Below, in pieces: positions 50,670-64,000 of a stretch of 64,000 nt of DNA. Origin of the DNA: Microbacterium hydrocarbonoxydans (GTDB lineage Bacteria > Actinomycetota > Actinomycetes > Actinomycetales > Microbacteriaceae); the NCBI RefSeq assembly GCF_000956475.1, contig NZ_JYJB01000009.1, forward strand, positions 372,001 to 436,000, given 5' to 3'. Position 1 is the first letter of the stretch. Each line of letters starts with the position of its first letter. The notes under the pieces are model-generated. The model worked only from the letters and a program-made list of their open reading frames with translations. It was not told where the DNA came from and did not search any database. Position numbers and translations under genes: made by a program.

Positions 50670-51494
50670 ATGGACATCGGCGCGCTCCTCGGTCTCGAAC
50701 AGCTGACCTGGGGCACCCTGATCCTCGTGATCGTCGCGGCCTTCGCCGCCGGCTGGATCGACGCCGTCGTCGGCGGTGGCGGGCTGCTTCAGCTGCCCGC
50801 CCTGCTGCTCATCCCCGGGATGGCTCCGGTACAGGCTCTCGCCACGAACAAGCTCGCCTCGGTGTTCGGCACCGCGACGAGCAGCATCACGTACTACCGG
50901 CGTGCGAAGCCCGACATCCGCACGGCGATACCGATGGCGGTGATCGCGCTGATCGGCTCGTTCGGGGGAGCGGCCGTGGCGACGGTGCTCCCCTCATCGG
51001 CCTTCAAGCCGATCATCGTCGTCGCGCTGCTGGCCGTTGCCCTGTTCACGGCTTTCAAGCCGCAGCTGGGCGCTGCGACGCAGCTGCGATTCCACGGGCA
51101 CAAGCACCACGTCGCAGCGGGCGCCGCGGGGCTCGGCATCGGCTTCTATGACGGCATGATCGGACCGGGAACGGGCACGTTCCTCGTGATCACGCTGGTC
51201 GCGCTGCTCGGCTACGACTTCCTGCAGGCGAGTGCGAAGGCGAAGATCGTGAACTTCGCGACCAACGCGGGGGCGCTGCTGCTGTTCATCCCGCACGGCT
51301 CAGTGCTGTGGCTGCTCGGCGGGATCCTCGCCGTGGCCAACGTGGCAGGCAGCTACCTCGGCTCACGCATGGCGATCTCGCGCGGGACCACGTTCATCCG
51401 CGTGGTCTTCCTCGTCGTCGTGATCGGACTGATCGCGAAGCTCGGCGTCGACGTGTGGAACGAGAACATCGCGCCGGCGCTCGCCGGCCGCTGA
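50670..51494 (+). CDS. TauE/SafE (TSUP) family membrane protein
   Basis: 274 residues, about eight predicted helices, with paired repeats GWIDAVVGGGGLLQLPALL (N half) and GFYDGMIGPGTGTFLVI (C half) typical of the family. These proteins export sulfite, sulfoacetate or related anions. It is divergent from the Pot/Fbp operon and converges on aspS, with a block of repeats and a terminator behind it. Substrate unknown. Confidence 0.92.
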   Translation: MDIGALLGLEQLTWGTLILVIVAAFAAGWIDAVVGGGGLLQLPALLLIPGMAPVQALATNKLASVFGTATSSITYYRRAKPDIRTAIPMAVIALIGSFGGAAVATVLPSSAFKPIIVVALLAVALFTAFKPQLGAATQLRFHGHKHHVAAGAAGLGIGFYDGMIGPGTGTFLVITLVALLGYDFLQASAKAKIVNFATNAGALLLFIPHGSVLWLLGGILAVANVAGSYLGSRMAISRGTTFIRVVFLVVVIGLIAKLGVDVWNENIAPALAGR

Positions 51495-51525
51495 CGGGAG
51501 TCGCGGGATCGATTCCGCGTTTCGT

Positions 51526-51690
51526 CTCGGTCGCTGGCGCTCCCTCGCTCAACGACCGGTGGGCTGGGGCCCTCGGTCGCTGGCGTTCTCTCGCTCAACG
51601 ACCGGTGGGCTGGGGCCCTCGGTCGCTGGCGTTCTCTCGCTCAACGACGGGTGGGCTGGGGCCCTCGGTCGTTGAGCGAGCGCAGCGAGA
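51526..51690. repeat. three tandem 46-base units plus an inverted copy
   Basis: A 46-base unit beginning CTCGGTCGCTGGCG starts at 51526, 51572 and 51618, with few mismatches. Each contains CTCGCTCAACGACC. The array is followed from 51664 by the same word in inverted form (GGTCGTTGAGCGAG). Similar inverted sets occur at 54382-54495. It lies between converging genes and carries no ORF. The word resembles a dispersed repeat I associate with Microbacteriaceae. Confidence 0.75.
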
Positions 51691-51728
51691 CGAAACGCCT
51701 CATGCTCCGCAGAACATGAGGCGTTTCG
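51691..51728. terminator. bidirectional terminator hairpin beside aspS
   Basis: Perfect 14-bp inverted repeat (51691-51704 with 51715-51728), 10-base loop, directly adjoining the 3' end of aspS and facing the TauE gene. Its arms include CGAAACGCC, which links it to the tandem repeat block. Confidence 0.7.
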
Positions 51729-51738
51729 AGGGGGCGTA

Positions 51739-53520
51739 TCAGGCCTCGTCGTCCTCGGGCACGAAGTCGACTCCGGCCTCCTTGCGCTGCGCGTCGCTGA
51801 TCGGCGCGGGCGCGGAGGTGAGCGGGTCGAAGCCGCCGCCGGACTTGGGGAAGGCGATCACGTCGCGGATCGACTCGCTCTTCGACAAATGCTGCAGGAC
51901 GCGGTCCATGCCGAGCGCGATGCCGCCGTGCGGCGGGGCGCCGAACTTGAACGCCTCGAGCAGGAAGCCGAACTGCTCGTCGGCCACCTCGTCGCTGATG
52001 CCCATGACCTCGAACACGCGCTTCTGCACGTCTTCGCGGTGGATGCGGATCGAGCCGCCGCCGAGCTCCGAGCCGTTGCAGACGATGTCGTAGGCGTAGG
52101 CGAGAGCCGAGCCGGGGTCGGTGTCGAACGTGTCCTCGAACTCGGGCTTGGGGCCCGTGAACGCGTGGTGCACGGCGGTCCAGGCGCCGGCGCCGACCGC
52201 GACGTCACCGGATGCCACGGCATCCGCCGCGGGCTCGAACATCGGGGCGTCGACCACCCACGTGAAGGCGAACTCGTCCGGGTTCAGGTAGCCGAGGCGG
52301 CGACCGATCTCGACGCGCGCGGCGCCGAGAAGCGCACGCGATTCCTTCGTGGAACCGGCCGCGAAGAACACGCAGTCACCCGACTCCGCGCCGACGAGCT
52401 CGGCGAGGCCGGCCTGCTCCGCCTCGGAGAGGTTCTTCGCGGCGGGGCCGCCGAGCGTGCCGTCCTCGTTGAACAGGACATAGGCGAGTCCGCGGGCGCC
52501 GCGCTGCTTGGCCCAGTCCTGCCAGGCGTCCAGCGTCTTGCGGGGCTGCGAAGCTCCGCCCGGCATCCGCACCGCTCCCACGTACTCGGCCTGGAACACG
52601 CGGAACGGCGTCTCCTTGAAGTACTCGGTCGCCTCGACGAGCTCGAGGCCGAAGCGCAGGTCGGGCTTGTCCGAGCCGTACTTGGCCATCGCCTCGGCGT
52701 AGGTCATGCGCGGCAGCGGGGTCTGCACCTCGACGCCGATCGTCTTCCACATCGCGACGATGAGCGACTCCATCAGGGTGATGACGTCTTCTTGATCGAC
52801 GAAGCTCATCTCGATGTCGAGCTGCGTGAACTCCGGCTGGCGGTCGGCGCGGAAGTCCTCGTCGCGGTAGCAGCGCGCGATCTGGAAGTACTTCTCCACG
52901 CCGCCGACCATGAGCAGCTGCTTGAACAGCTGCGGCGACTGCGGCAGGGCGTACCAGCTCCCGGGGTGCAGGCGTGCGGGCACGACGAAGTCGCGGGCGC
53001 CTTCAGGCGTGGAGCGCGTGAGGGTCGGCGTCTCGACCTCGGTGAAGTCCTCGGCGTGCAGCACGTCGCGGATCGCCTTGTAGACGTTCGAGCGCAGACG
53101 CAGAGCGGATGCCGTCGCCGGACGGCGCAGGTCGAGGTAGCGGTACTTGAGACGCGCCTCCTCACCCACGGTCTCGGTCTCGGCGAGTGCCGTCGACACC
53201 TGGAAGGGCAGCGGCGCCGACTCGTTCAGCACCACGACGTCGCTCGCGATGAGTTCGATCTCGCCGGTGGGCAGGTTCGGGTTGGCGTTGCCCGCCGGAC
53301 GCTGCGAGACCTCGCCGGTGACCTTGAGCACGAACTCGTTGCGCAGCGGGTGGGCCACCTCTTCGTCGCGGATCACGACCTGGGCGATGCCCGATGCATC
53401 CCGCAGATCGATGAACGCGACTCCTCCGTGATCACGACGACGATCGACCCAACCCGTGAGGGTGACGGTCTGACCGATGTTCTCTGCTCGCAGGGAGCCT
53501 GCGGAGTGAGTGCGAAGCAC
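51739..53520 (-). CDS. aspS: aspartyl-tRNA synthetase
   Basis: 593-residue bacterial-type class II synthetase. The N-terminal OB-fold opens with [19 protein letters not shown]; class II motif 2 lies around [18 protein letters not shown] and motif 3 in [13 protein letters not shown]. An insertion domain of bacterial type lies between about residues 280 and 420. Whether it is discriminating (Asp only) or also charges tRNA-Asn depends on residues I cannot resolve here. ATG 53520. Confidence 0.97.
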
Positions 53521-53559
53521 GGAGGATTCCTCCTGATCTGGGAAATGGTGAACCCCGCA

Positions 53560-53587
53560 AGTCTACCGGGGGCGGTTTCAGTAGACT
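53560..53587. promoter_or_regulatory. back-to-back TAGACT boxes of a divergent promoter
   Basis: AGTCTAC (53560-53566) and GTAGACT (53581-53587) form an inverted repeat; each strand reads TAGACT, a plausible -10. One would serve aspS (start 53520, leader about 33 bases), the other the mini-ORF/histidine-phosphatase unit. No clear -35 boxes are seen. Confidence 0.45.
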
Positions 53588-53626
53588 CGCCAGCGCAGCC
53601 CCGGGTTCCTCTGATGAAAGGCCGCC

Positions 53627-53719
53627 ATGCGCTTCGCCCCTGATGCCGTCCGCGACGGGGAGCCTCGCGCTCCCCTCGGCCGCGCGGTTCCCTCTGAGAC
53701 GGCGGACCGTCGGGCATGA
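53627..53719 (+). CDS. 30-codon mini-ORF coupled to the histidine phosphatase gene
   Basis: Starts ATG 53627, five bases after AAAGG, and runs 30 codons; its TGA is interleaved with the phosphatase ATG (ATGA at 53716-53719). The predicted peptide begins MRFAPDAVRDGEPRAP and is Ala/Arg/Pro rich. I do not recognise it. It may be a genuine small protein, a translational-coupling leader, or chance. Confidence 0.4.
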   Translation: MRFAPDAVRDGEPRAPLGRAVPSETADRRA

Positions 53720-54360
53720 CGGCGTCGCGGCTGCACCTGGTCAGGCACGGCGAGGTGCACAACCCCGGACGCGTGCTGTACGGGCGGCTGCCCGGTTACG
53801 GGCTGAGCGAGGCGGGGCGTCGGATGACGTGGGCCGCCGCCGAGCATGTGCGCGATCTCGATCGCCCTGTGACGTCGCTGATCGCCTCTCCGCTGCAGCG
53901 CACACAGGAATCGGCCGAGCCGTTCACCGAGATCTTCGGCCTCGTTCCCGTCCTCGACATGCGCGTGATCGAGCCGACCAACGTCTTCGAGGGCACGCAG
54001 ATGCGTCGCTCTCTCATGAACCCCGTGAACTGGTGGCACCTGCGGCGACCCTCGGTGCCGAGCTGGGGAGAGCCGTATTCGTCGATCGCGGAGCGGATGC
54101 TGTCGGCCATGGACGAAGCGTGGGATGCGTCGACGGCCTCGGCGGCCCAGGGGGAGGGCAGCGACGTCGTCATCGTGTCGCATCAAGCGCCGATCTGGAT
54201 CGCACATCTCCGCGTCGCGGGTCTCCCGCTGCGGCACGACCCCCGCACCCGCCGCTGCGCGCTGTCGAGCGTGACGTCTTTCGAACGCGTCGGCGACGTG
54301 TGGCGCGAGGTCGACTATGCCGAGCCCGCGTCCGGCGGGATCGACCTCGGCGCGGTCTGA
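53716..54360 (+). CDS. histidine phosphatase family protein
   Basis: 214 residues. The phosphohistidine site LHLVRHGEVHNPGR has the RHG core at the N-terminus, and the second His is in DVVIVSHQAPIW (VSHQAPIW). The mid Glu in IEPTNVFEGTQ fits the acid/base position. It would hydrolyse a phosphomonoester. In other actinobacteria this gene often directly precedes the resA-ccdA-resB-ccsB cluster; here a flavoprotein/MerR pair separates them. Confidence 0.9.
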   Translation: MTASRLHLVRHGEVHNPGRVLYGRLPGYGLSEAGRRMTWAAAEHVRDLDRPVTSLIASPLQRTQESAEPFTEIFGLVPVLDMRVIEPTNVFEGTQMRRSLMNPVNWWHLRRPSVPSWGEPYSSIAERMLSAMDEAWDASTASAAQGEGSDVVIVSHQAPIWIAHLRVAGLPLRHDPRTRRCALSSVTSFERVGDVWREVDYAEPASGGIDLGAV

Positions 54361-54381
54361 CATCCTCCGGCCGGAGGGGAT

Positions 54382-54495
54382 GCGTTTCGTCTCGGTCGCT
54401 GGCTCCCTCGCGGGGGCGACCCGGAAGCGGTCGCTGCGCTCCGTCGCTCAACGACCGGGAGGGGGTCGTTGAGCGAGCGGAGCGAGACGACACGC
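54382..54495. repeat. GAGCGAGCGGAGCGAGACG-type inverted repeat element
   Basis: A 13-bp stem (54444-54456 with 54464-54476, 7-base loop) is extended by imperfect arms, bounded by GCGTTTCGTCTCGG on the left and GCGAGACGACACGC on the right. It shares its words with the tandem repeats at 51526-51690. It lies between the converging phosphatase and flavoprotein genes, so it may terminate both. Confidence 0.7.
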
Positions 54496-54499
54496 TGGA

Positions 54500-55396
54500 T
54501 CACTCGATGAGCGCGCGCACGATGCCGATGGCGGCCAGTTGCCCGGCGGCCGCGGCGAGCAGGACCGCCGGCATGGGGCCGGGGAGAGCCGCGCGGTGCG
54601 CGAGATCTCCGGCCGCAAGGATGCCGGGCACGGAGGTTGCGCCGAAATCGTCGATCTCGATGGACCCCGAGGGCAGCATCCGGAGATCCAGCTGCTCGGC
54701 GAAGGGCGCGCGCTGGCGCGAGACGACCGACGCCACGAAGATCCCCGCGACGGCTGTGGATTCGGCTCCTGCCGACACACGGACGTCTGCGCCGTCGATG
54801 CTCACCTCCTCGACGGGCGTAGAGCTGACGCGGGCTCCGCGGCTCTCCAGCATCCGACGCTCGTCATCGCTGAAGACCGCGCCGACCGGGAACACGGTGA
54901 TCTCGCCGACGAAGCGCCCGAGAAGGCCGATGAGATGCTCGGCCCGATCGGCGGCGCCGAGCACGGCGATGGGCTTTCCTGTGTGCTCGTGGCCGTCGCA
55001 GAACGGGCAGCTGAAGGCGCGGGTTCCCCAGAGCGCGCCGAGTCCCGGGACATCCGGCAGCTCGTCTGCGACTCCGGTCGCGAGCACGATCCGGCGCGCT
55101 GTGACCTCGGAGCCGTCGGCGAGCTGCACCGTGAAGTCGTCCTGCCGGCCCGTGATGCGCTCGGCGGAGACGTCGCGGATCTCGACCTCTGCATAGTCTG
55201 CGAGCTGCGCGCGGGCGGTGGCGCGGAAGTCCGCAGGCGCGGTTCCGTCGTTCGCGACGACGTTGTGCATGTGCAGCACGGTGCCGTTGCGATACTCGCC
55301 CGAGTCGAGCAGCAGCGTCGAGCGGTGCATCCGCCCCAGGGTGAGCGCCGCCTGCAGTCCTGCCGGTCCTGCGCCGATCACGATCGCGTCGTACAT
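54500..55396 (-). CDS. NAD(P)/FAD-dependent oxidoreductase (thioredoxin reductase-like)
   Basis: 298 residues. FAD-binding AIVIGAGPAGLQAALTLGR at the N-terminus, a redox pair C-P-F-C in AFSCPFCDGHEH (as CATC in TrxB), an NAD-binding segment IAVLGAADRAEHLIGLLG (with AAD instead of GxG) and the C-terminal FAD contact ILAAGDLAHR. It is shorter and the spacing differs from true TrxB, so it is called TrxB-like. The electron acceptor is unknown. It is divergent from a MerR regulator, with the operator in between. Confidence 0.85.
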   Translation of the reverse strand: MYDAIVIGAGPAGLQAALTLGRMHRSTLLLDSGEYRNGTVLHMHNVVANDGTAPADFRATARAQLADYAEVEIRDVSAERITGRQDDFTVQLADGSEVTARRIVLATGVADELPDVPGLGALWGTRAFSCPFCDGHEHTGKPIAVLGAADRAEHLIGLLGRFVGEITVFPVGAVFSDDERRMLESRGARVSSTPVEEVSIDGADVRVSAGAESTAVAGIFVASVVSRQRAPFAEQLDLRMLPSGSIEIDDFGATSVPGILAAGDLAHRAALPGPMPAVLLAAAAGQLAAIGIVRALIE

Positions 55397-55430
55397 GGTG
55401 TTCCTTCCGGTCGTGCTTGCGTATGAGCTC

Positions 55431-55461
55431 AGTCTGTGACTTCATGTCAACATGAAGTCAA
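55431..55461 (-). promoter_or_regulatory. MerR-type operator within a 19-base promoter spacer
   Basis: On the minus strand: -35 TTGACT (55461-55456), 19-base spacer, -10 CAGACT (55436-55431). The spacer is filled by a perfect 10-bp dyad (TGACTTCATG, four bases, then its complement; 55437-55460). A long spacer with a dyad is the classic target of MerR activators. The dyad also covers the ATG of the merR-type gene itself. Confidence 0.72.
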
Positions 55462-55856
55462 ATGCCGAGCATCCGTGGTCCGTGGGCGACGTCGCCGCCC
55501 GCGTCGATCTGCCCACCAACGTGCTGCGGCACTGGGAGTCCGTGGGCCTGCTGCGTCCCGAGCGGGATGCCGCCGGACGACGCCGCTACGGCGAGGACGA
55601 GGTCGTCCGCATCGCGGTGATCCAGCGCAGCAAGGCGGCCGGCATGACCCTCGAGCAGATCGGCGTGATGCTCGACAACGGCGCCAGGGAGCGGCATCAG
55701 GTTCTGCAGCAGCATCTGGACGACATCGACCGTCGCATGGAAGAGATGCGGCGCTCGAAGGCGATGACCGAGCACGCGATGCGCTGCAGCGCCCACGACA
55801 TCGCCACATGCCCGAGATTCCGCGCGGGCGTCGCCGACGTCCTCGCGCGATTCTGA
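55452..55856 (+). CDS. MerR family transcriptional regulator
   Basis: 134 residues. N-terminal helix-turn-helix WSVGDVAARVDLPTNVLRHWE, then wing RRYGEDEVVRIAVIQRSKAAGM, a dimer helix (~75-110) and a C-terminal C-x8-C stretch CSAHDIATCPRFR that could sense redox or metal. It probably activates the divergent flavoprotein gene through the operator overlapping its own start. The ATG is inside the dyad, so the mRNA leader is very short. Confidence 0.9.
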   Translation: MKSNAEHPWSVGDVAARVDLPTNVLRHWESVGLLRPERDAAGRRRYGEDEVVRIAVIQRSKAAGMTLEQIGVMLDNGARERHQVLQQHLDDIDRRMEEMRRSKAMTEHAMRCSAHDIATCPRFRAGVADVLARF

Positions 55857-55907
55857 GGCCCGCCCCATCCGGCCTACGCATAGGAACCCCTGCGTACACT
55901 GGGAATC

Positions 55908-56558
55908 GTGCCTGTCGCGCCTTTGGTCAACCCGATCCGCAGCGGCCGCCGCTCCCGCATCCGCCTCGTTCGCGGTGCGATCGGAGCCGCGCTCGCCGCG
56001 GTCGTCGCCGTCGGTCTCACCGCCTGCGCTCCCGATCCGGTGAGCGACTCGTTCCTCAGCGGTGACAACAACGGCTATGTCGCGGCCGACGGTGCGATCG
56101 TCGAGATCCCCGTCGCCGAGCGAGGTGAACCTGTCGACTTCGGCGGTGTCACCGAGGCGGGCGAGAAGTTCTCCAGCGCCGACACCGCGGGTCAGGTCAC
56201 CGTCGTGAACTTCTGGTACGCGGGCTGCGCGCCGTGCCGGGTCGAGGCGGATTTCCTGGAGACCGTCTGGCAGAAGTTCGACGGCCAGGGCGTCTCGTTC
56301 ATCGGCGTGAACACGCGCGACCAGGCCGACACCGCCAAGGCGTTCTCCGACGAGTACAGCATCACGTACCCCAGCCTGATCGACGTCGACACCGCGGAGG
56401 CCAAGCTCGCCTTCGCCGAGGCTGTGCCGATCCAGGCGACCCCGACGACGCTCGTGCTCGACAAGCAGGGCCGCGTCGCCGCCCGCATCATCGGCCCGAT
56501 CGACAGCCCGTCCATCCTCTCCACGCTCGTCAAGGACGCTCTCGCGGAGAAACTGTGA
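55908..56558 (+). CDS. ResA/TlpA-like thioredoxin lipoprotein
   Basis: 216 residues; basic N-terminus, hydrophobic helix and lipobox LTAC with C40, then a thioredoxin fold outside the membrane with the redox pair C107-A-P-C110 (WYAGCAPCR) and cis-Pro IQATPTTLVL. It reduces the heme-binding Cys of apocytochrome c, taking electrons from CcdA. GTG 55908. The stop overlaps the ccdA start by 4 bases. Confidence 0.93.
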   Translation: MPVAPLVNPIRSGRRSRIRLVRGAIGAALAAVVAVGLTACAPDPVSDSFLSGDNNGYVAADGAIVEIPVAERGEPVDFGGVTEAGEKFSSADTAGQVTVVNFWYAGCAPCRVEADFLETVWQKFDGQGVSFIGVNTRDQADTAKAFSDEYSITYPSLIDVDTAEAKLAFAEAVPIQATPTTLVLDKQGRVAARIIGPIDSPSILSTLVKDALAEKL

Positions 56559-57361
56559 GCCCCCACGACATCATCGGTTCGGGTGCGCTCTGGCTCGCGA
56601 TCCCCGTCGCGATGGTCGCCGGACTCCTGTCGTTCCTGTCGCCGTGCGTGCTGCCGCTCGTGCCGGGCTACCTCGGATTCCTCGGGGGAGCGGTGGGCCC
56701 TTCGACAGGCTCAGGAACCCAGAGGGCAGGCGCAGGGACCCAGCGTGCAGGCTCAGGAAACCCGAGGGCCGCGCAGGCCCCGGGTCGTCGGCAGCTGGTG
56801 CTCGGGGTGCTGCTGTTCATCCTCGGATTCAGCGTCGTCTTCATCGGGATCACCGCGCTCAGCGGCACCGTCGGCGTCTTCCTGCTGCGCTGGGGCGACC
56901 TCATCACGCGCATTCTGGGCGCGGTGATCATCCTGATGGGGCTCGTCTTCCTCGGCTTCTTCGGCTTCGCGCAGAGAGAGCTCCGCTTCCACGTCGACGC
57001 CAAGGCCGGCATCATCGGCGCCCCGCTGCTCGGCGTCGCGCTCGGGATCGGCTGGGCACCCTGCATGGGGCCGACGCTCAGCGCGATCGTGGCGCTGTCG
57101 TTCAACGCCGGCGACCCGCTGCGTGCGAGCTTCCTCGGCCTCGCCTACTCGCTGGGACTCGGCATCCCGTTCCTGCTCGTCGCTCTCGGATTCGGCTGGG
57201 CGACCAAGACGATCGGGTTCCTCCGCCGCCACATCCGCGTCGTGAACATCATCGGCGGCGTCCTGCTCATCGTGCTCGGCATCCTGATGGTGTCCGGCCT
57301 GTGGACGGGCATCATGTCGCGGCTGACGGCGGTGATGGGCAGTGTCATCCTCCCGCTCTGA
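56555..57361 (+). CDS. ccdA: cytochrome c biogenesis protein CcdA
   Basis: 268 residues, six predicted helices; passes electrons from cytoplasmic thioredoxin to ResA. The two redox Cys are in FLSPCVLPLVPGY (helix 1) and GWAPCMGPTLSA (helix 4). The loop between helices 1 and 2 is lengthened by about 25 residues of Gly/Ser/Thr/Gln/Arg (GPSTGSGTQRAG and so on), encoded by a repeat element in frame. Family members have a short loop there. Otherwise the fold looks intact. GTG 56555 overlaps the resA stop. Confidence 0.93.
   Translation: MSPHDIIGSGALWLAIPVAMVAGLLSFLSPCVLPLVPGYLGFLGGAVGPSTGSGTQRAGAGTQRAGSGNPRAAQAPGRRQLVLGVLLFILGFSVVFIGITALSGTVGVFLLRWGDLITRILGAVIILMGLVFLGFFGFAQRELRFHVDAKAGIIGAPLLGVALGIGWAPCMGPTLSAIVALSFNAGDPLRASFLGLAYSLGLGIPFLLVALGFGWATKTIGFLRRHIRVVNIIGGVLLIVLGILMVSGLWTGIMSRLTAVMGSVILPL
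56698..56768. repeat. in-frame repeat insertion within ccdA
   Basis: Begins with CCCTTCGACAGGCTCAGG, which matches a dispersed repeat type I associate with Microbacteriaceae. It is followed by three 21-base copies (56706-56726, 56727-56747, 56748-56768) encoding GSGTQRA, GAGTQRA and GSGNPRA as read in the ccdA frame. An 18/22 match to its first 22 bases is found in the MMPL gene at 63582-63603, read in the same frame. Confidence 0.75.
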
Positions 57362-57392
57362 CCAGATCGAACAGAACGACCAGAAGGACTCC

Positions 57393-59099
57393 GTGGAAAC
57401 CGACCCTCTGCGCCCGTCAGACCACATCGACGGTGACGACACGATCACCCAGCCGAAGCTCGGACTCGTCGGCTGGCTCCGCTGGGGCTGGCGCCAGCTG
57501 ACCTCGATGCGTACCGCGCTGATCCTGCTTCTGGTGCTCGCGATCGCGGCGATCCCCGGATCGATCTTCCCGCAGCGCATGGCCGATCCGAACGGCGTCA
57601 CGCAGTGGCAGCGCGACAATCCCGATCTGTTCCCGGTGCTCGATGCGCTGAAGATGTTCGACGTGTACCTCTCGCCGTGGTTCTCCGCGATCTACCTGCT
57701 GCTGTTCACCTCGCTCGTCGGCTGCGTGATCCCGCGCATCAAGCACCATGCGAAGGCCCTGCGGGCCCGGCCCCCGCGCACCCCTGCCCGGCTGCAGAGG
57801 CTGGCCGACCACCGCGAGGTGGAGCGCCAGGCGACGGATGCCGCAGCCGACGCCGCGGCGTCGATCGACATCGCGCAGAAGCAGCTGAAGGCTCTCGGCT
57901 ACCGCGTCGAGCGGTACGACGACAAGCGCTCCTTCTCGGTGTCGGCCGAGCGCGGTTACTGGCGAGAGTCCGGCAACCTCGTCTTCCACATCGCGCTCGT
58001 CGGCGTGCTGATCACAGTGGGGGTCGGCGGCGGATTCGCGTACACCGGCCAGCGCGTCCTGGTCGAAGGCGGCACGTTCGCGAACACGCTGCTCGACTAC
58101 GACTCGATGAACAGGGGGCGCTTCGTCGGCGACGGCGCTCTCGCGCCCTACTCGATGACCCTCGATTCCTTCGACGTGACGTATCAGCCGTTCGGTGAAG
58201 CCGGATCGGGACAGGCGGGCGACTTCTCGGCCAACATGACCGTGAAGGAGAACGGCAAGGAGCGCACCGGCTCGGTCAAGGTCAACGAGCCGCTCGCGAT
58301 CGCCGACGACGAGGTCTTCCTGCTCGGCAACGGCTACGCGCCCACGATCACCGTGCGCAACGCGGCAGGCGATGTGGTGTTCACCGACAGCGTGCCGTTC
58401 CTGCCGCAGGACGCGAACATGACCTCGCTGGGCGTCGTGAAGGTCACGGACGGGATGCCGGAGCAGCTCGGTCTCCTCGGGTTCTTCTATCCGACCACCG
58501 GCGTGCTCGACACCGGCGCGTTCTTCTCGGCCTATCCGGATCTCACCAACCCCACGCTCACCCTCGACGTGTACAAGGGCGACCTCGGTATCAACAAGGG
58601 TGACCCGAAGTCGGTCTACGTCCTCGACACCACCGACCTCACCAAGCTCACAGGGCGCGACACCGACACCGAGTCGCTCGAGCTCACGCCCGGTCAGACG
58701 GCCGACCTGCCGAACGGCATGGGCACCGTGACGTTCGAGGATGAGTCGCCCGCCGGAGCGACCGATCTGTCGCACGCCGTGAAGCGCTTCGCGTCGCTGC
58801 AGATCCACCGCGACGAGTCGGGCGTGTTCGTCCTGACCTTCGCGCTTCTGGCACTCGGCGGACTCATGCTCGCGCTGTTCGTGCCCCGCCGCCGGATCTG
58901 GGTGAAGGCGACCGCCTCGGGAGATTCCGTCGCGCTCGAGTACGCAGGGCTGGCGCGCGGCGAGGACCCCACGCTCGCCGCAGCGGTGGACGACATCGTG
59001 AAGGGTCACGCCCGGCTGCTCGACGACGCCGGCGTCACCGAGAGCCCGTCCTCCGGCATCCCGTCCTCCGGCATCCCGTCTTCCGACCCCCGAAAGTAG
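57393..59099 (+). CDS. resB: cytochrome c biogenesis protein ResB
   Basis: 568 residues; with CcsB it forms the system II synthase that attaches heme to apocytochrome c outside the membrane. Three N-terminal helices (SMRTALILLLVLAIAAIPGS onward), a large extracytoplasmic domain and a last helix (FVLTFALLALGGLMLALFVP). The GTG start at 57393 has GAAGGA upstream; the earlier frame start at 57342 overlaps ccdA. The C-terminus has two repeats of SSGIP, from a 15-base tandem duplication. Confidence 0.93.
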   Translation: METDPLRPSDHIDGDDTITQPKLGLVGWLRWGWRQLTSMRTALILLLVLAIAAIPGSIFPQRMADPNGVTQWQRDNPDLFPVLDALKMFDVYLSPWFSAIYLLLFTSLVGCVIPRIKHHAKALRARPPRTPARLQRLADHREVERQATDAAADAAASIDIAQKQLKALGYRVERYDDKRSFSVSAERGYWRESGNLVFHIALVGVLITVGVGGGFAYTGQRVLVEGGTFANTLLDYDSMNRGRFVGDGALAPYSMTLDSFDVTYQPFGEAGSGQAGDFSANMTVKENGKERTGSVKVNEPLAIADDEVFLLGNGYAPTITVRNAAGDVVFTDSVPFLPQDANMTSLGVVKVTDGMPEQLGLLGFFYPTTGVLDTGAFFSAYPDLTNPTLTLDVYKGDLGINKGDPKSVYVLDTTDLTKLTGRDTDTESLELTPGQTADLPNGMGTVTFEDESPAGATDLSHAVKRFASLQIHRDESGVFVLTFALLALGGLMLALFVPRRRIWVKATASGDSVALEYAGLARGEDPTLAAAVDDIVKGHARLLDDAGVTESPSSGIPSSGIPSSDPRK

Positions 59100-59108
59100 A
59101 CTGACAGC

Positions 59109-60089
59109 ATGTTCGACCTCTCCGTGATATCGCCGGTGCTGCTGTGGACCGCGATCGCGATCTACGCGGCATCCTTCGTCGCGTTCGCCGTCGATCTCGC
59201 TCGTCGCTCGCAGGCGACCGCCGACGCTCGCACCGTGCGCGCTGCCGAGCTCGTCGGCGCGGGAGTGGGCGGCAGCACCGCATCGGTCCCGGCCACCGGC
59301 GCAGCCGGAGACCCGGCACCGCAGCGATTCATGATGGCTCGCATCGGCACGTCTCTCATGACGCTCGCCTGGGTGCTCCACCTGGCAGCCACCGTGACCC
59401 GCGGCATCGCCGCGGGACGTGTGCCCTGGGCGAACCTGTACGAGTTCGCGATGATCGGCACCCTGCTGATCGTGGCCGTGTTCCTGGCCGTGCTGACCCG
59501 GATCGACCTGCGCTATCTCGGCACCTTCATCACGGGTCTCGTGGTGATCCTGCTGGGGCTCGCCTCGACGAACTTCTACGTCGAGATCACGCCGCTGATG
59601 GATCCGCTGAAGAGCATCTGGCTGATCATCCACGTGTTCGTCGCCTCGCTCGGCACTGCGTTCTTCGCACTGTCGTTCGCGCTGTCTGTGACCCAGCTCA
59701 TGCAGTCCCGTCGCGAGCGCCTGCTCGCCGAGGGCGCGGAGAAGACCGGGCCGCGATTCCTGGCGACGTTCCCTGCGTCCGAGCGGCTCGAGAGCCTGGC
59801 CTACCGATTCGCGATCATCGGGTTCATCCTGTGGACGTTCACGCTCATCGCAGGGTCCATCTGGGCGCACTACGCGTGGAGCCGCTACTGGGGCTTCGAC
59901 GTCAAGGAGACCTGGACGTTCGTCATCTGGGTCATCTACGCCGGCTACATCCACGCGCGTGCGACGCGCGGCTGGCGAGGCAACCCCTCGGCCTGGCTCT
60001 CGATCGTCGGCTTCGCCGCCGTGATGTTCAACTTCACGATCGTGAACGTCTTCTTCAAGGGCCTGCACGCGTACTCCGGCCTGAGCTGA
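59109..60089 (+). CDS. ccsB: cytochrome c biogenesis protein CcsB (CcsA family)
   Basis: 326 residues with about eight predicted helices. The heme-handling WWD-like region is AHYAWSRYWGFDVKETWTF, followed by IWVIYAGYIHAR. A His in MRPL-like HVFVASLGTAFFALSF and the IHARATRGW segment may be heme ligands. It completes the resA-ccdA-resB-ccsB set, 9 bases behind resB. All four steps of system II are thus present. Confidence 0.93.
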   Translation: MFDLSVISPVLLWTAIAIYAASFVAFAVDLARRSQATADARTVRAAELVGAGVGGSTASVPATGAAGDPAPQRFMMARIGTSLMTLAWVLHLAATVTRGIAAGRVPWANLYEFAMIGTLLIVAVFLAVLTRIDLRYLGTFITGLVVILLGLASTNFYVEITPLMDPLKSIWLIIHVFVASLGTAFFALSFALSVTQLMQSRRERLLAEGAEKTGPRFLATFPASERLESLAYRFAIIGFILWTFTLIAGSIWAHYAWSRYWGFDVKETWTFVIWVIYAGYIHARATRGWRGNPSAWLSIVGFAAVMFNFTIVNVFFKGLHAYSGLS

Positions 60090-60110
60090 GCCGCGCACCG
60101 GCTTCCGGCA

Positions 60111-60695
60111 TCAGCCGGTGAGGGGGATCACCTCGGAGTGCTCCTCGCCGTTCTCGTACCAGACCAGCTCTACCTCGCCGATGCTCTCGGACGGCCGACC
60201 GCCGATCGAGCGGCGTGACATGTGCGAGAGCGTCGTCCATGGCGCCGGCGCGAGGGACTTCGCGTAGACGAGCGACATGTGGAAGGTCCATTCCTTGAGC
60301 GGCAGCTCTCCGAGCCGGCGGATGTCGGTGCGGTCGAGTGCTTCCGTCAGTCGCGCGTACGCGGACAGCAGGCTCGCCGTGCGCGACAGCCGGATGATGA
60401 GGATCTGCCAGGGCGAGGGGAACGCGTCGACCGCCTCGGCGACGACGTCGATCGGGGGTTGCGCGGCCGCCCATCTGCGCACGACAGCCGCGAGGTCCTC
60501 GCGCCGCTCCGGCTCGTAGAATCCCCGAAGCGTCACGTGCCCGGTGTGCGGGTGCGGGACGTCGGCCCGTGCGAGCGCCGTGCGCTGTTCTGCGCGGTAG
60601 CGGTCGGCGACCACCGACGTCGGGCGCAGCACGAGGTACTGCTGACCATCGAGTGAGGCGAGCTGCTCAGGGGTGCTCATGAACGGTCGGCGCAT
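60111..60695 (-). CDS. putative 2H phosphoesterase (2'-5' RNA ligase-like)
   Basis: 194 residues. Two H-x-T/S motifs, HVTLRGF (near residue 56) and FHMSLVYA (near 140), are spaced as in the 2H superfamily, which acts on cyclic or 2'-5' phosphodiesters. The substrate is unknown. ATG 60695 is used (MRRPFMSTPEQL); ATG 60680 is the alternative. It is convergent to ccsB. Confidence 0.75.
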   Translation of the reverse strand: MRRPFMSTPEQLASLDGQQYLVLRPTSVVADRYRAEQRTALARADVPHPHTGHVTLRGFYEPERREDLAAVVRRWAAAQPPIDVVAEAVDAFPSPWQILIIRLSRTASLLSAYARLTEALDRTDIRRLGELPLKEWTFHMSLVYAKSLAPAPWTTLSHMSRRSIGGRPSESIGEVELVWYENGEEHSEVIPLTG

Positions 60696-60742
60696 CCCCT
60701 GAGCGTACGACGTCTCACGGCATCCGTCTGCCACTCGCGGCG

Positions 60743-62731
60743 TCAGGCGGTCGCCAGCGCGGTCCTCGCGGAGGTCGTGCGGCGCAGCGTGATCACGATG
60801 GTCGTGACGACCAGAGGCAGCACACCCCACACGACGAGCGCCGCGGCGGCGCCGCCGTTCGCGGCGATGAGACCGGTGAATGCGGGTGCCGTCGGCAGCG
60901 CGGATCCGATCGAGGCTAGCCATCCGGGAACGGTCGAGATGAGGCCCGTCGCGACGGCGAGCACGCCGATCAGGGCGCCCACCCAGCGCCCGGCGCCGCC
61001 GAACACCGCGACGAGAGCCTGGTTCACGGCGGCGAACGCGATGCCCGCGAGTACGGCGGTGCCGGCGAACGCCCACCAAGTGCCCGCGTCGTAGCTCGCC
61101 ACGATCTGCACGATCAGCGCGACGAGCACGCCCTGCCCTGCCCCGATCAGTGCGGCGGGAGCGAAGCCACGCAGCGCCAGGCCCGCGGAGGAGCGTCGTG
61201 AGGTCAGTGTGCGCGCGGTGTGCGCTCGCATCACGATGAACGACGCGAGGCCGCCGAACCAGAGCACGACTGCGGTGAGAAGCGGGATCGCGGTCGGGCC
61301 GAAGATCGTCGTCGCCTCGGAGTTCGTCTTCACGGGATCCGCCATCACCGTGGCGAGGGACTTGGACTCCCCGTCGGTGAAGGACGGCAGCGAGTCGGAT
61401 GCCGTGCGCAGACCGCCGGCGAGATCGCCGGTCCCTGTGGCGAGGGTGTCGAGGCCCGTGGCGAGCTCACCCGCTCCGGCGGACAGCTGGGTCGCCCCGT
61501 CGGACAGCTGGGCGGCGCCGTCGGCGAGCTGGGCGGCACCTGAGGCGGACTTGTCGAGTCCGTCGGTCGCGAGCTGGTTCAGGCCCGCGGCGATCGAGGA
61601 CGCGCCGGTTCCGGCTGTGCGCATGTTGGTCGCGAGGGTCGTGAACGTGCCGGGAAGGGCTGCGACGCCGCCTGCGATCTGCGGGTCGTTCAGGATTCCG
61701 GATGCCGCGCCGGCAGACGTCGCGACGCCACCGGCGGACGCCGCGGCCGTCTTGATCCGGTCGCAGATCGCGGCGGGCACGCCGGAGTCGGGCTTCGCGC
61801 AGTCTGTCGCCAGCGAGCTGAGATCTCCCGCCAGCGCCGCCGAGCCGGTCGCCGCCGTGCCGGCCGCGCCCGCGGCGCTCTGGATTCCACCGACGAGCGC
61901 GGGCATTCCCGCCGTCTGCTGCTCGAGCTGGGTCGCGCCGCTGAGCAGCCCCGTCCCCAGCTGGCTCGCCCCACCGGCAAGCTGCCGCGTGCTGCCCGCC
62001 ATGGTGGTGAGTCCCGTGGACAGCTCCGACGCTCCGGTGCTGAGTCCGGTCGCACCGGTGGCGAGCTTGGCCGCACCGTCCGGGATGGCAGCCGCGCCGG
62101 TCGCGGCATCCCGGGCTCCGGATGCGAGCTGCACAGCGCCGTCCGCAGCGTCGCCGATCTGGTCACCGAGGGTCGTGAAGCCGACCAGGACGTTGCTCAT
62201 GGTCGCTTCGCTGAGCATCGAGCCCGTGCTGGCCGCCGCCACCGAGGCGATCTGTCCGGTGATCAAGTCGTCTGCGACGAGCCCGTCCGGGGGAGTGGTC
62301 ACCGTGATCGTGGCCTTCTCGGCGTCATCGGATGCGGCGCCACCGCCGTCTGCGATCGCCGTGCCCGCCGAGGTCGCGGCCTTCGAGAAGTCCTCGGGGA
62401 TCGTGATGACCGCCTGGTAGGTGCCGTCGGCGAGGCCCTCCTTCGCGTCGTCCTCGTTCGAGATGACCCACGTGAGGTTCGAGTCGAGGTCGTCCGACCC
62501 CTCGACCAGCCCCGAGGCCAGCTGGCGGCCGAGAGGCGTGAGCTGCCCGTCGATCGTGACCGGCTCGTCGAGGTTGACGATCGCCGCGGTCATGGAGTCG
62601 AGCCGCTCGGTGGGGTTCTGCAGGGCGGCGACGAGGATCCCGCCGACGGCTGCAGGGAGCAGCAGCACGCCGAGGATTGTCAGCCAGGTGATGGGTCTGC
62701 GCGTACGGGCACGCTCAATGGGGAGGGTCAT
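60743..62731 (-). CDS. YhgE/Pip domain membrane protein
   Basis: 662 residues. One N-terminal helix, then a large external region (about 30-460) with many Leu/Ala/Gly/Thr repeats such as LSTGASELSTGLTT and QLADGAAQLSDGATQL that suggest long helical or coiled structure, then about five C-terminal helices. This is the layout of YhgE/Pip proteins (phage-infection proteins and the ESX/T7SS accessory EsaA type). No T7SS genes are nearby. It starts in ATGA overlap with the MMPL gene stop, so the two are coupled. Confidence 0.88.
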   Translation of the reverse strand: MTLPIERARTRRPITWLTILGVLLLPAAVGGILVAALQNPTERLDSMTAAIVNLDEPVTIDGQLTPLGRQLASGLVEGSDDLDSNLTWVISNEDDAKEGLADGTYQAVITIPEDFSKAATSAGTAIADGGGAASDDAEKATITVTTPPDGLVADDLITGQIASVAAASTGSMLSEATMSNVLVGFTTLGDQIGDAADGAVQLASGARDAATGAAAIPDGAAKLATGATGLSTGASELSTGLTTMAGSTRQLAGGASQLGTGLLSGATQLEQQTAGMPALVGGIQSAAGAAGTAATGSAALAGDLSSLATDCAKPDSGVPAAICDRIKTAAASAGGVATSAGAASGILNDPQIAGGVAALPGTFTTLATNMRTAGTGASSIAAGLNQLATDGLDKSASGAAQLADGAAQLSDGATQLSAGAGELATGLDTLATGTGDLAGGLRTASDSLPSFTDGESKSLATVMADPVKTNSEATTIFGPTAIPLLTAVVLWFGGLASFIVMRAHTARTLTSRRSSAGLALRGFAPAALIGAGQGVLVALIVQIVASYDAGTWWAFAGTAVLAGIAFAAVNQALVAVFGGAGRWVGALIGVLAVATGLISTVPGWLASIGSALPTAPAFTGLIAANGGAAAALVVWGVLPLVVTTIVITLRRTTSARTALATA

Positions 62732-64000
62732 GCGGTCACCTCGGAGGATTCGTCGGAATGCTGAGCGGATCGGGTGGAGATGTCGATCACGTCGGGGGCC
62801 GAGCGGCCGGCCGACGCGAGGACGTCGAGTGCCGGCGCGGACGACGCGCCCGTGAGCACGACGGCCGTCGCGGCATCCGCATCTCGCAGGCGGGCCGCGA
62901 GCTGGTCGCGCTGGGCGGAGGAGAGCGCGTCGACGCCGTCGATCACGACCAGGGCGGGGCACCCCCGCAGCGCTTCGGAGAGGTCGGATGCGGTGGCGCC
63001 GGCCTGCGTCGCGAGCACAACTCCCACGTGCGCGCGCACCCAGGCCGCCCGACCAGGCAGCAGGTGACCTGCGACGCGCAGCAGTCCGGAGTCCGGGGCG
63101 ACGCGACCCGCGAGCACGAGCGCGAGCACTCGCCGCGTGCCCGCTGCGCCGCCGGTGAGCACGGCGCTGCCTCCCGGGGCGACGCGCATGTGCAGCGCCT
63201 CGATTCCGGCATCCGCCATCACGAGGTCGTCGGCGGCGACCACCGAGTCGTCACCAGGCCAGTCGGCCAGATGACGCTCTCGCTCGACCGCCTCGCCCTC
63301 GATGTCGACGCTCGGGAGGATCTTCTCGAGCCACCTCGGAATCTGCCAGGCGCGCTCGCCGAGGATCGCCATGAGCGCGGGAATCAGGGTCATGCGCACG
63401 AGGAAGGCGTCGATCGCGATGCCGGCTGCGAGACCGAGGGCGATCGGCTTGAGCGAGGAGTCGCCCTCGGGGACGAACGCCACGAACACCGCGAACATGA
63501 TCAGTCCGGCAGCCGTGACGACCTTCGCCGACCCCGCGAAGCCGCTGCGCACGGCGCGCAGCGCGGCGGCCCTCTTGATCTGGGTCGCTGAGCCCGTCGA
63601 AGCGTCGGGGCTCTTCGAGTCCTTGTCGTGCACGTAGTCCTCGCGCATGCGCGACACCAGGAACACCTGGTAGTCCATCGCGAGTCCGAACAGCACGCCC
63701 ATCAGGATGATCGGCATGAAGCTGATGATCGGGCCGACCTTCGCGACGTGCAGGGCGTCTGCGAACCAGCCCCATTCGAACACCGCGCCCACGATGCCGA
63801 AGGCGGCGATGATCGAGAGCAGGTACCCGAGGGCGGCGGTGATCGGCACCCACAGCGAGCGGAAGACGATGGTGAGGAGGATCAGCGACAGACCGATCAC
63901 GAAGATCCCGAACGGCAGCAGCGCGTTGCCGAGCTGGTCGGAGATGTCGATGCCGACCGCCGTGAAGCCGGTGACCTTGAGGTCGATGCCGAACTTCTTC
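62728..64000 (-). CDS. MMPL family transporter with ATPase-like C-terminal tail (partial)
   Basis: The C-terminal 424 residues; the 5' end lies beyond the window. The visible membrane part is a C-terminal RND/MMPL unit (GVLFGLAMDYQVFLVSRMRED, then GSAKVVTAAGLIMFAVFV). The last ~175 residues look like a decayed ABC ATPase domain: a glycine loop GGAAGTRRVL in place of Walker A, RVAPDSGLLRVAG, and ALVVIDGVDAL in place of Walker B. A short repeat-derived STGSATQ insertion is in the cytoplasmic loop. MMPL proteins export lipids or are multidrug pumps. Confidence 0.8.
   Translation of the reverse strand, partial: KKFGIDLKVTGFTAVGIDISDQLGNALLPFGIFVIGLSLILLTIVFRSLWVPITAALGYLLSIIAAFGIVGAVFEWGWFADALHVAKVGPIISFMPIILMGVLFGLAMDYQVFLVSRMREDYVHDKDSKSPDASTGSATQIKRAAALRAVRSGFAGSAKVVTAAGLIMFAVFVAFVPEGDSSLKPIALGLAAGIAIDAFLVRMTLIPALMAILGERAWQIPRWLEKILPSVDIEGEAVERERHLADWPGDDSVVAADDLVMADAGIEALHMRVAPGGSAVLTGGAAGTRRVLALVLAGRVAPDSGLLRVAGHLLPGRAAWVRAHVGVVLATQAGATASDLSEALRGCPALVVIDGVDALSSAQRDQLAARLRDADAATAVVLTGASSAPALDVLASAGRSAPDVIDISTRSAQHSDESSEVTA
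63582..63603. repeat. in-frame repeat core within the MMPL gene
   Basis: Read on the minus strand, GCTTCGACGGGCTCAGCGAC plus CC matches the ccdA element in 18 of 22 bases and encodes STGSATQ in the same phase as STGSGTQ in ccdA. It lies in the loop between DYVHDKDSKSPDA and IKRAA. Confidence 0.65.

Follow-up and report, generated by a model that had tools for sequence, protein, structure and literature searches.

An element of about 25 nt, REP-like and non-autonomous, very probably inserts widely in Microbacterium genomes, with selection keeping the copies that are in frame and compatible with protein loops. The element reaches high copy number, its outer base pairs covary, its distribution in the genus is patchy, the same site is filled in one species and empty in another, and copies in genes reside in frame in loops. 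The window (the whole stretch of DNA analysed, 64,000 nt of Microbacterium hydrocarbonoxydans; genome 3.95 Mb) contains two host genes, as well as copies of a second, unrelated repeat (Table 1).

Table 1 Host genes and repeat copies in the window
Feature	Position	Strand	Remarks
ccdA-like gene (cytochrome c biogenesis, DsbD_TM)	56555..57361	+	Pfam PF02683, E 7.4e-07; hosts first repeat copy
Full repeat copy CCCTTCGACAGGCTCAGGAACCCAG in ccdA	56698..56722	+	read P-S-T-G-S-G-T-Q; core TTCGACAGGCTCAG at 56701-56714
Three degenerate units in ccdA	56706..56769	+	second half of repeat in tandem; 7-residue units, in frame
MMPL-family transporter gene	62728..64000, continues beyond window end	-	Pfam PF03176, E 1.4e-19; second host
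Repeat copy CGCTTCGACGGGCTCAGCGACCCAG in MMPL gene	63580..63604	-	read A-S-T-G-S-A-T-Q; core TTCGACGGGCTCAG at 63588-63601 (contig 435588-435601)
Second-repeat copy (TCTCGCTYCGCTCGCTC)	54471..54487	-	intergenic; inverted partner adjoining (region 54384-54495)
Second-repeat copy, one mismatch	51674..51690	-	intergenic; bounds from gene calls

The repeat and its family

The ccdA-like gene encodes a protein of 268 aa. An exact match to CCCTTCGACAGGCTCAGG occupies 56698-56715 on the + strand, and the three degenerate 22-nt copies are spaced 21 nt apart (periods 21, 21). The repeat and the degenerate units (56698-56769) are translated in frame as GPSTGSGTQRAGAGTQRAGSGNPRA. In an AlphaFold model (mean pLDDT 71), the insert (residues 49-72) sits between helices 35-46 and 78-142 and is the sole run of at least three residues with pLDDT <50. 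The MMPL gene encodes 933 residues as read in L051, and its copy contributes the peptide DASTGSATQ. Compared by eye, the ccdA and MMPL 22-mers are identical at 18/22 positions, and codon position 3 is the first T of the core in both. The preliminary description had reported a repeat with three degenerate copies in ccdA, placed between helices, and an 18/22 match read in the same phase as STGSATQ in MMPL, and all of this is reproduced.

Exact copies of the core, TTCGACRRGCTCAG, number 75 in the M. hydrocarbonoxydans genome versus 0 for the reversed control; at ≤1 mismatch the counts are 133 versus 11. The longer pattern TTCGACAGGCTCAGG has 22 exact matches genome-wide versus 0 for its reversed pattern. 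The window itself holds 3 matches at ≤3 mismatches versus 0.13 expected; the match at 1296 is probably a chance one. In a scan of the genus, the core is present in 137/198 genomes (M. hydrocarbonoxydans included), with a range of 0 to 621 copies, and 62/198 genomes hold at least 10 cores (tallied by hand). The outlier species (G063) accounts for the 621 exact cores, many of which, in the places listed, form clusters with spacings of ~40-150 bp. The preliminary description had called for a search of the genome and its relatives and named copies at chance level as the outcome that would speak against a repeat family; the copies are far above chance relative to the reversed controls.

Alignment of the 75 copies on the core gives a 25-nt consensus, CCCTTCGACRRGCTCAGGGACCCAG. 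In size and number, the family matches dispersed REPs (20-40 nt, many copies). Positions outside the core covary. Pair -2/+14 is Watson-Crick in 64/75 copies (C-G 41, G-C 22, other 1; shuffles mean 35.4, max 49) and pair -3/+15 in 69/75 (shuffles mean 51.5, max 61). Among 68 copies from three other genomes, the two positions are paired in 61/68 (shuffle mean 30.4, max 43) and 57/68 (shuffle mean 47.2, max 55), respectively. The 54 genic copies of all four genomes, taken by themselves, are paired in 47/54 (reached by 0/5000 shuffles) and 45/54 (1/5000 shuffles). No pairing excess over shuffles is seen at -4/+16 and -5/+17. The two covarying pairs, together with T0-A12 and C-1-G13, make a stem of ~4 bp with a loop of 11 nt. 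A single repeat unit, with its 4-bp stem, folds no better than its own shuffles; therefore, it is the covariation that argues for a hairpin. The covariation could partly come from a few spreading subfamilies (CCC..GGG, CGC..GCG) and not from compensatory change. Because the DNA stem covaries and genic copies keep the -2/+14 pair, the encoded peptide switches jointly between P..G and A..A.

Convergence of low-complexity Gly/Ser/Thr loops in GC-rich genes, or plain chance, would account for the CcdA and UbiB loops, which in many relatives vary in length and are rich in G, S, T, and A. However, the 25-nt block recurs as a whole, in spacers and genes alike. The reversed-pattern controls (75 versus 0) and the covariation outside the core lead us to reject this explanation, the probability of which is negligible.

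Ten pairs of neighbouring copies lie within 150 bp of each other in the M. hydrocarbonoxydans genome, and nine of them are in opposite orientation (six +/-, three -/+). An inverted pair folds strongly, as any inverted pair would. The spacing of the tail units is divisible by 3 in 11/13 genic versus 13/29 intergenic cases, and in both genic exceptions (L020, L038) the copy is at a gene terminus. A three-copy array, with copies ~130 bp apart, lies in a ~319-bp segment of G116 (L251, G116:C6:1740700-1743000) that is missing from its close relative G066. Rfam gives no match at the gathering threshold in positions 51000-64000 of the window.

Genic copies and reading frames

We located 143 copies in four genomes (75/75 in M. 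hydrocarbonoxydans, 28/28 in G107, 17/18 in G042, and 23/23 in G116). Genes were called with a home-made caller whose model of codon usage was trained on the window. By these calls, genes contain 54 copies and spacers 86, and the remaining 3 overlap a gene end. The fetched DNA is 89-92% coding, so that genes carry ~38% of the copies on ~90% of the DNA. The majority of copies are extragenic, as expected of REPs and as the preliminary description had anticipated, though the majority (86/143) is smaller than the name implies. The same description had left open whether the repeat is tolerated in genes or selected for. Genes have fewer copies than their share of the sequence would give; the first alternative fits and the second does not, the repeat being tolerated in genes, not favoured. 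At L028 and L059, an antisense copy overlaps the end of a called gene and apparently provides its TGA stop codon.

The genic copies are unevenly distributed over the six frames (sense2 26, sense1 9, sense0 1, anti0 11, anti1 7, anti2 0; the anti2 frame contains TGA). Sense2, the frame of the ccdA and MMPL copies (STGSGTQ), accounts for 26/36 sense copies (binomial p 2e-6, with copies treated as independent). Sense2 is read PSTGSGTQ or ASTGSATQ, sense1 ALRQAQGP, and sense0 FDRLRDP, and the open antisense frames give GSLSLSKG and WVPEPVEG. By the limits set in the script, 18/54 genic copies are near a gene end (sense, 8 N-terminal and 7 C-terminal; antisense, 3 N-terminal), where a wrong start or a harmless tail is possible. 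The internal sense copies alone show the same order (sense2 16, sense1 5, sense0 0). The codon endings of sense0 suit a GC-rich genome, yet that frame is used once. We therefore infer that the frame bias follows amino acids rather than codons.

The second repeat (TCTCGCTYCGCTCGCTC, GTTTCGTCTCGCTYCGCTCGCTCAACGACC) has 88 matches at ≤1 mismatch in the M. hydrocarbonoxydans genome versus 1 for the control. Its 48 distinct exact copies divide into 37 intergenic, 1 partial, and 10 genic. Five of the six sense genic copies are in one frame, read DVSSRSARSTT, VSSRSARSTT, or near; two of these five are in one gene, and one is in a doubtful UbiB N-terminus. Since an unrelated repeat obeys the same rule, the comparison, small as its numbers are, supports a filter that is general across repeat families and not tied to one special peptide. 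Two second-repeat copies lie in the predicted UbiB N-terminus (L035, 984-1200). The true start of this UbiB may be downstream, since in most relatives the alignment begins only at about residue 20-60.

Host loops and sites in close species

The two unrelated membrane proteins of the preliminary description are confirmed as hosts, and the repeat is not confined to membrane proteins. Other hosts include UbiB/ABC1, seryl-tRNA synthetase (SerRS), a radical SAM protein, MerR regulators, GrpE, and kynureninase. Pfam matches add serine dehydratase, a TPP enzyme, RNA pseudouridine synthase, and a DEAD-box helicase in M. hydrocarbonoxydans; the scanned hosts L055 and L208 have no Pfam match. The DEAD-box helicase, which carries DUF3516 (L013, G000:C7:200500-204500), contains three exact copies, two of which form an inverted pair.

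Named relatives of the CcdA-like protein are nearly all from Microbacterium, with identity of at most 83%. We compared 64 CcdA loci by script (L064-L127, with two paralogues from some genomes), of which 62 have a readable loop. The repeat is found, at ≤2 mismatches, in the loops of 4/62 other loci (L064, L080, L116, L118), and the second repeat in those of 3/62 (L066, L067, L074). The copy in L080 is in a different frame and reads ALRQAQGP. The majority of CcdA relatives are without the repeat in the loop. In the MMPL loop, M. hydrocarbonoxydans has SPDASTGSATQIKRAA where many relatives have SPDRATRRAA, an addition of 6 residues, and 27/30 aligned loci (M. hydrocarbonoxydans being one of the 30) are without a recognisable copy. 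L181 (one mismatch) and L180 (decayed) have the repeat in this MMPL loop as well, shifted a few codons upstream and read as ALRQAQGP. The comparison of loops that the preliminary description had suggested thus shows that the loop sequence is not common to all relatives.

In the UbiB/ABC1 kinase, the repeat occupies the turn that precedes the DFG strand (HADPHPGNVFV…RLTFIDFG) in 8/30 loci, M. hydrocarbonoxydans included. A quick tree from which the loop was left out requires at least 6 changes of state. A solved UbiB homologue (5yjz) is without the segment, and the SerRS insert coincides with a gap in the alignment to the solved structure 2dq3. Changes of state by themselves do not separate gain from loss; the differing positions, frames, and tail lengths of the copies argue for repeated gain.

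Repeated use of the same loops and the dominance of a single sense frame (26/36) would also be seen if STGSGTQ were a functional protein motif, such as a linker or a modification site, spread by its benefit. We consider this very unlikely, since 86/143 copies are intergenic, copies are depleted in genes relative to the ~90% of sequence that is coding, genes use five frames over both strands, and the same MMPL and CcdA loops of other species carry the ALRQAQGP frame.

Close species allow filled and empty sites to be compared directly. We used the pairs G107/G042 and G116/G066, in which the flanks are 87 to 99.7% identical. Of 43 loci fetched, 39 have an ortholog with both flanks, and the first copy in each locus was considered. 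Alignments read by eye show that the copy, in some cases decayed, is shared at 9/39 loci (L210, L212, L213, L217, L242, L244, L255, L258, L259). The relative has a copy in opposite orientation near the same place at 2/39 (L219, L223), the second repeat or its variant instead at 5/39 (L202, L209, L218, L220, L224), and neither repeat at 23/39. This division into shared, replaced, and empty sites indicates that copy turnover is fast.

At the protein level, we compared 16/19 in-gene copies of G107 and G116, leaving out L203 and L211 (no ortholog with both flanks) and the second copy in L248. All 16/16 orthologs keep an open frame, which continues through the site or, at the C-terminal sites L223 and L246, stops nearby. 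The typical addition is 5-8 residues, and it is exactly 6 residues at 6/16 sites, among them seryl-tRNA synthetase (L257), the radical SAM protein (L206, which we read as HemW), and a MerR-type regulator (L254, named after its M. hydrocarbonoxydans counterpart L016). The gain is 7 residues in L247, a membrane protein that matches ABC-2 weakly, and 8, in the ALRQAQGP frame, in L248, an MTS-type methyltransferase. Four sites do not conform to simple gain: the segment of the relative is longer and different at L207 and L252, and the copy is common to both species at L212 and L255.

The better resolved in-gene pairs have a block of ~26-36 nt versus ~5-17 nt in the relative. The block is 32 nt versus 14 nt at the HemW site and 27 versus 10 at the SerRS site (edges uncertain by ~1 base). 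Protein-level lengths are used instead of DNA-level block length modulo 3 (15 in-gene pairs), for several of which the alignment edges yield net values of 17, 23, 5, and -86. No target duplication is seen by eye in the filled/empty pairs, whose species are several percent diverged, and the edges of the replaced blocks may be blurred by later drift since the species split.

Spread of the repeat and likeness to known elements

In the mechanism that we propose, a host process would copy the ~25-nt element, frequently lengthened by tandem copies of its own second half, to new sites in Microbacterium genomes. Insertion would hit genes and spacers alike. Purifying selection would then strip nearly all genic copies save those in frame in surface loops or linkers, where the copies kept would be read as small flexible residues (STGSGTQ, GSLSLSKG). 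The swapped blocks, the lack of a visible target duplication, and the exact 6-residue gain at 6/16 sites favour replacement over ordinary transposition. Our guess for this step is a replacement-type event, for example a short templated patch in break repair or replication.

A classical REP would be mobilised in cis or in trans by a RAYT (REP-associated tyrosine transposase, Y1_Tnp). The size of the element, its covarying stem, the short-range inverted pairs, and the mostly intergenic location are those of REPs as presented in excerpts of PMC3733652. However, Y1_Tnp has no match in M. hydrocarbonoxydans and none in 197/198 genus genomes searched (M. hydrocarbonoxydans included), and the one genome that has it (G041) contains a single core. 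Y1_Tnp is matched in 5/14 control genomes. In addition, the resolved sites resemble replacements. We therefore reject mobilisation by a RAYT as improbable.

No mobilising enzyme was found. Ku-dependent capture has no significant link to copy number: at least 10 copies are present in 3/19 Ku-less and 59/179 Ku-bearing genomes (p 0.19), and Ku, present in 179/198 genomes, is too common to discriminate. Carriage by phage was also rejected, the 20-nt pattern TTCGACRRGCTCAGGGACCC having 0 exact matches among viral contigs.

Beyond the proposed insertion and selection, we tentatively suggest, as a reading less likely than its negation, that the repeats represent continuing natural linker insertion. 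A patch templated during repair or replication, and not a transposase, would spread at least two unrelated families, and each event would turn ~10 nt into ~28 nt. The genic survivors would record loops that tolerate 5-8 additional residues, that of seryl-tRNA synthetase among them; the same loops would be hit repeatedly in different species, with the two families swapping at the same sites.

Elements of this kind are known. As excerpted from Di Nocera, De Gregorio and Rocco 2013 (PMC3733652), REPs occur inside ORFs in several phyla, the CGTC class is without a dedicated transposase, the recB genes of two Xanthomonas species are hit by a REP at about the same site, and intragenic hosts include tRNA synthetases and pseudouridine synthases. 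The Microbacterium repeat is like the GTAG and CGTC REPs of those excerpts in being short, dispersed, mostly intergenic, and sometimes within ORFs, and in having a putative stem; like the CGTC class, it has no dedicated transposase that we could find (PMC3733652). It differs from both in having no GTAG tag and no CGTC-type A-T first pairs, and its stem of ~4 bp with an 11-nt loop compares with 8-9 bp and 4-5 nt (PMC3733652). The outer pairs of the 75 copies are mainly C-G, G-C, and T-A, with no GTAG in the base counts; next to some CGC-type copies the opposite strand does spell CGTC, which is not in the consensus. It further differs in its actinobacterial genus and in the frame bias and the filled and empty sites shown here; M. 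tuberculosis is named in the excerpts solely for untagged REP-like sequences (PMC3733652).

The preliminary description likened the repeat to the in-frame palindromic elements of Rickettsia, in an actinobacterium, and the unrelated in-frame hosts support that likeness. Rickettsia palindromic elements (RPE) were reportedly described by Ogata and colleagues. Microbacterium is GC-rich and, in contrast to the RPE host, is not known to be obligately intracellular. According to the passages of PMC2229807 used here, RPE are fused in frame to conserved Rickettsia proteins and are considered neutral or slightly harmful. The Microbacterium repeat is likewise in frame in many unrelated conserved proteins and retained in the product, whereas RPE have a long stem and, at 105-146 bp, are of another size than ~25 nt (PMC2229807). 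The MITE-type repeats RU/ERIC of enterobacteria and Correia of Neisseria are also non-autonomous, with open frames fused to genes (Delihas, PMC2229807; PMC2759123). They are longer than the Microbacterium repeat, at ~100-170 bp, and have terminal inverted repeats, several with target duplications (PMC2229807).

REP-like repeats are not new in the phylum either, since the RepRanger survey of 2025 tabulates predicted REPs in Actinomycetota, for example in Arthrobacter livingstonensis (PMC12306157). By the definition used in that survey, REPs seldom overlap with protein-coding regions, and its main text contains neither "Microbacteri" nor "intragenic" (PMC12306157). Therefore, with intragenic REPs (PMC3733652), RPE (PMC2229807), and actinobacterial REPs (PMC12306157) on record in the parts of those sources drawn on, the kind is already known. 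In the open-licence papers searched, the letters of both repeats and the peptides STGSGTQ and PSTGSG have no match, and nothing on point appears for Microbacterium or actinobacteria with REPs or in-frame insertion. As far as the literature was searched, what is new is an untagged, RAYT-less actinobacterial family, its frame filter, its recurrence in the same loops of different species, and direct present/absent pairs.

A 25-nt repeat can thus seed flexible segments into enzymes, including seryl-tRNA synthetase, without a known transposase. The genus is culturable, which makes the movement of RAYT-less REP-like repeats and the origin of new protein loops and linkers testable. The copies offer a natural map of insertion-tolerant loops, useful to genome annotators and protein engineers. 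If linker insertion is indeed continuing, they would amount to a proteome-wide record of tolerant loops.
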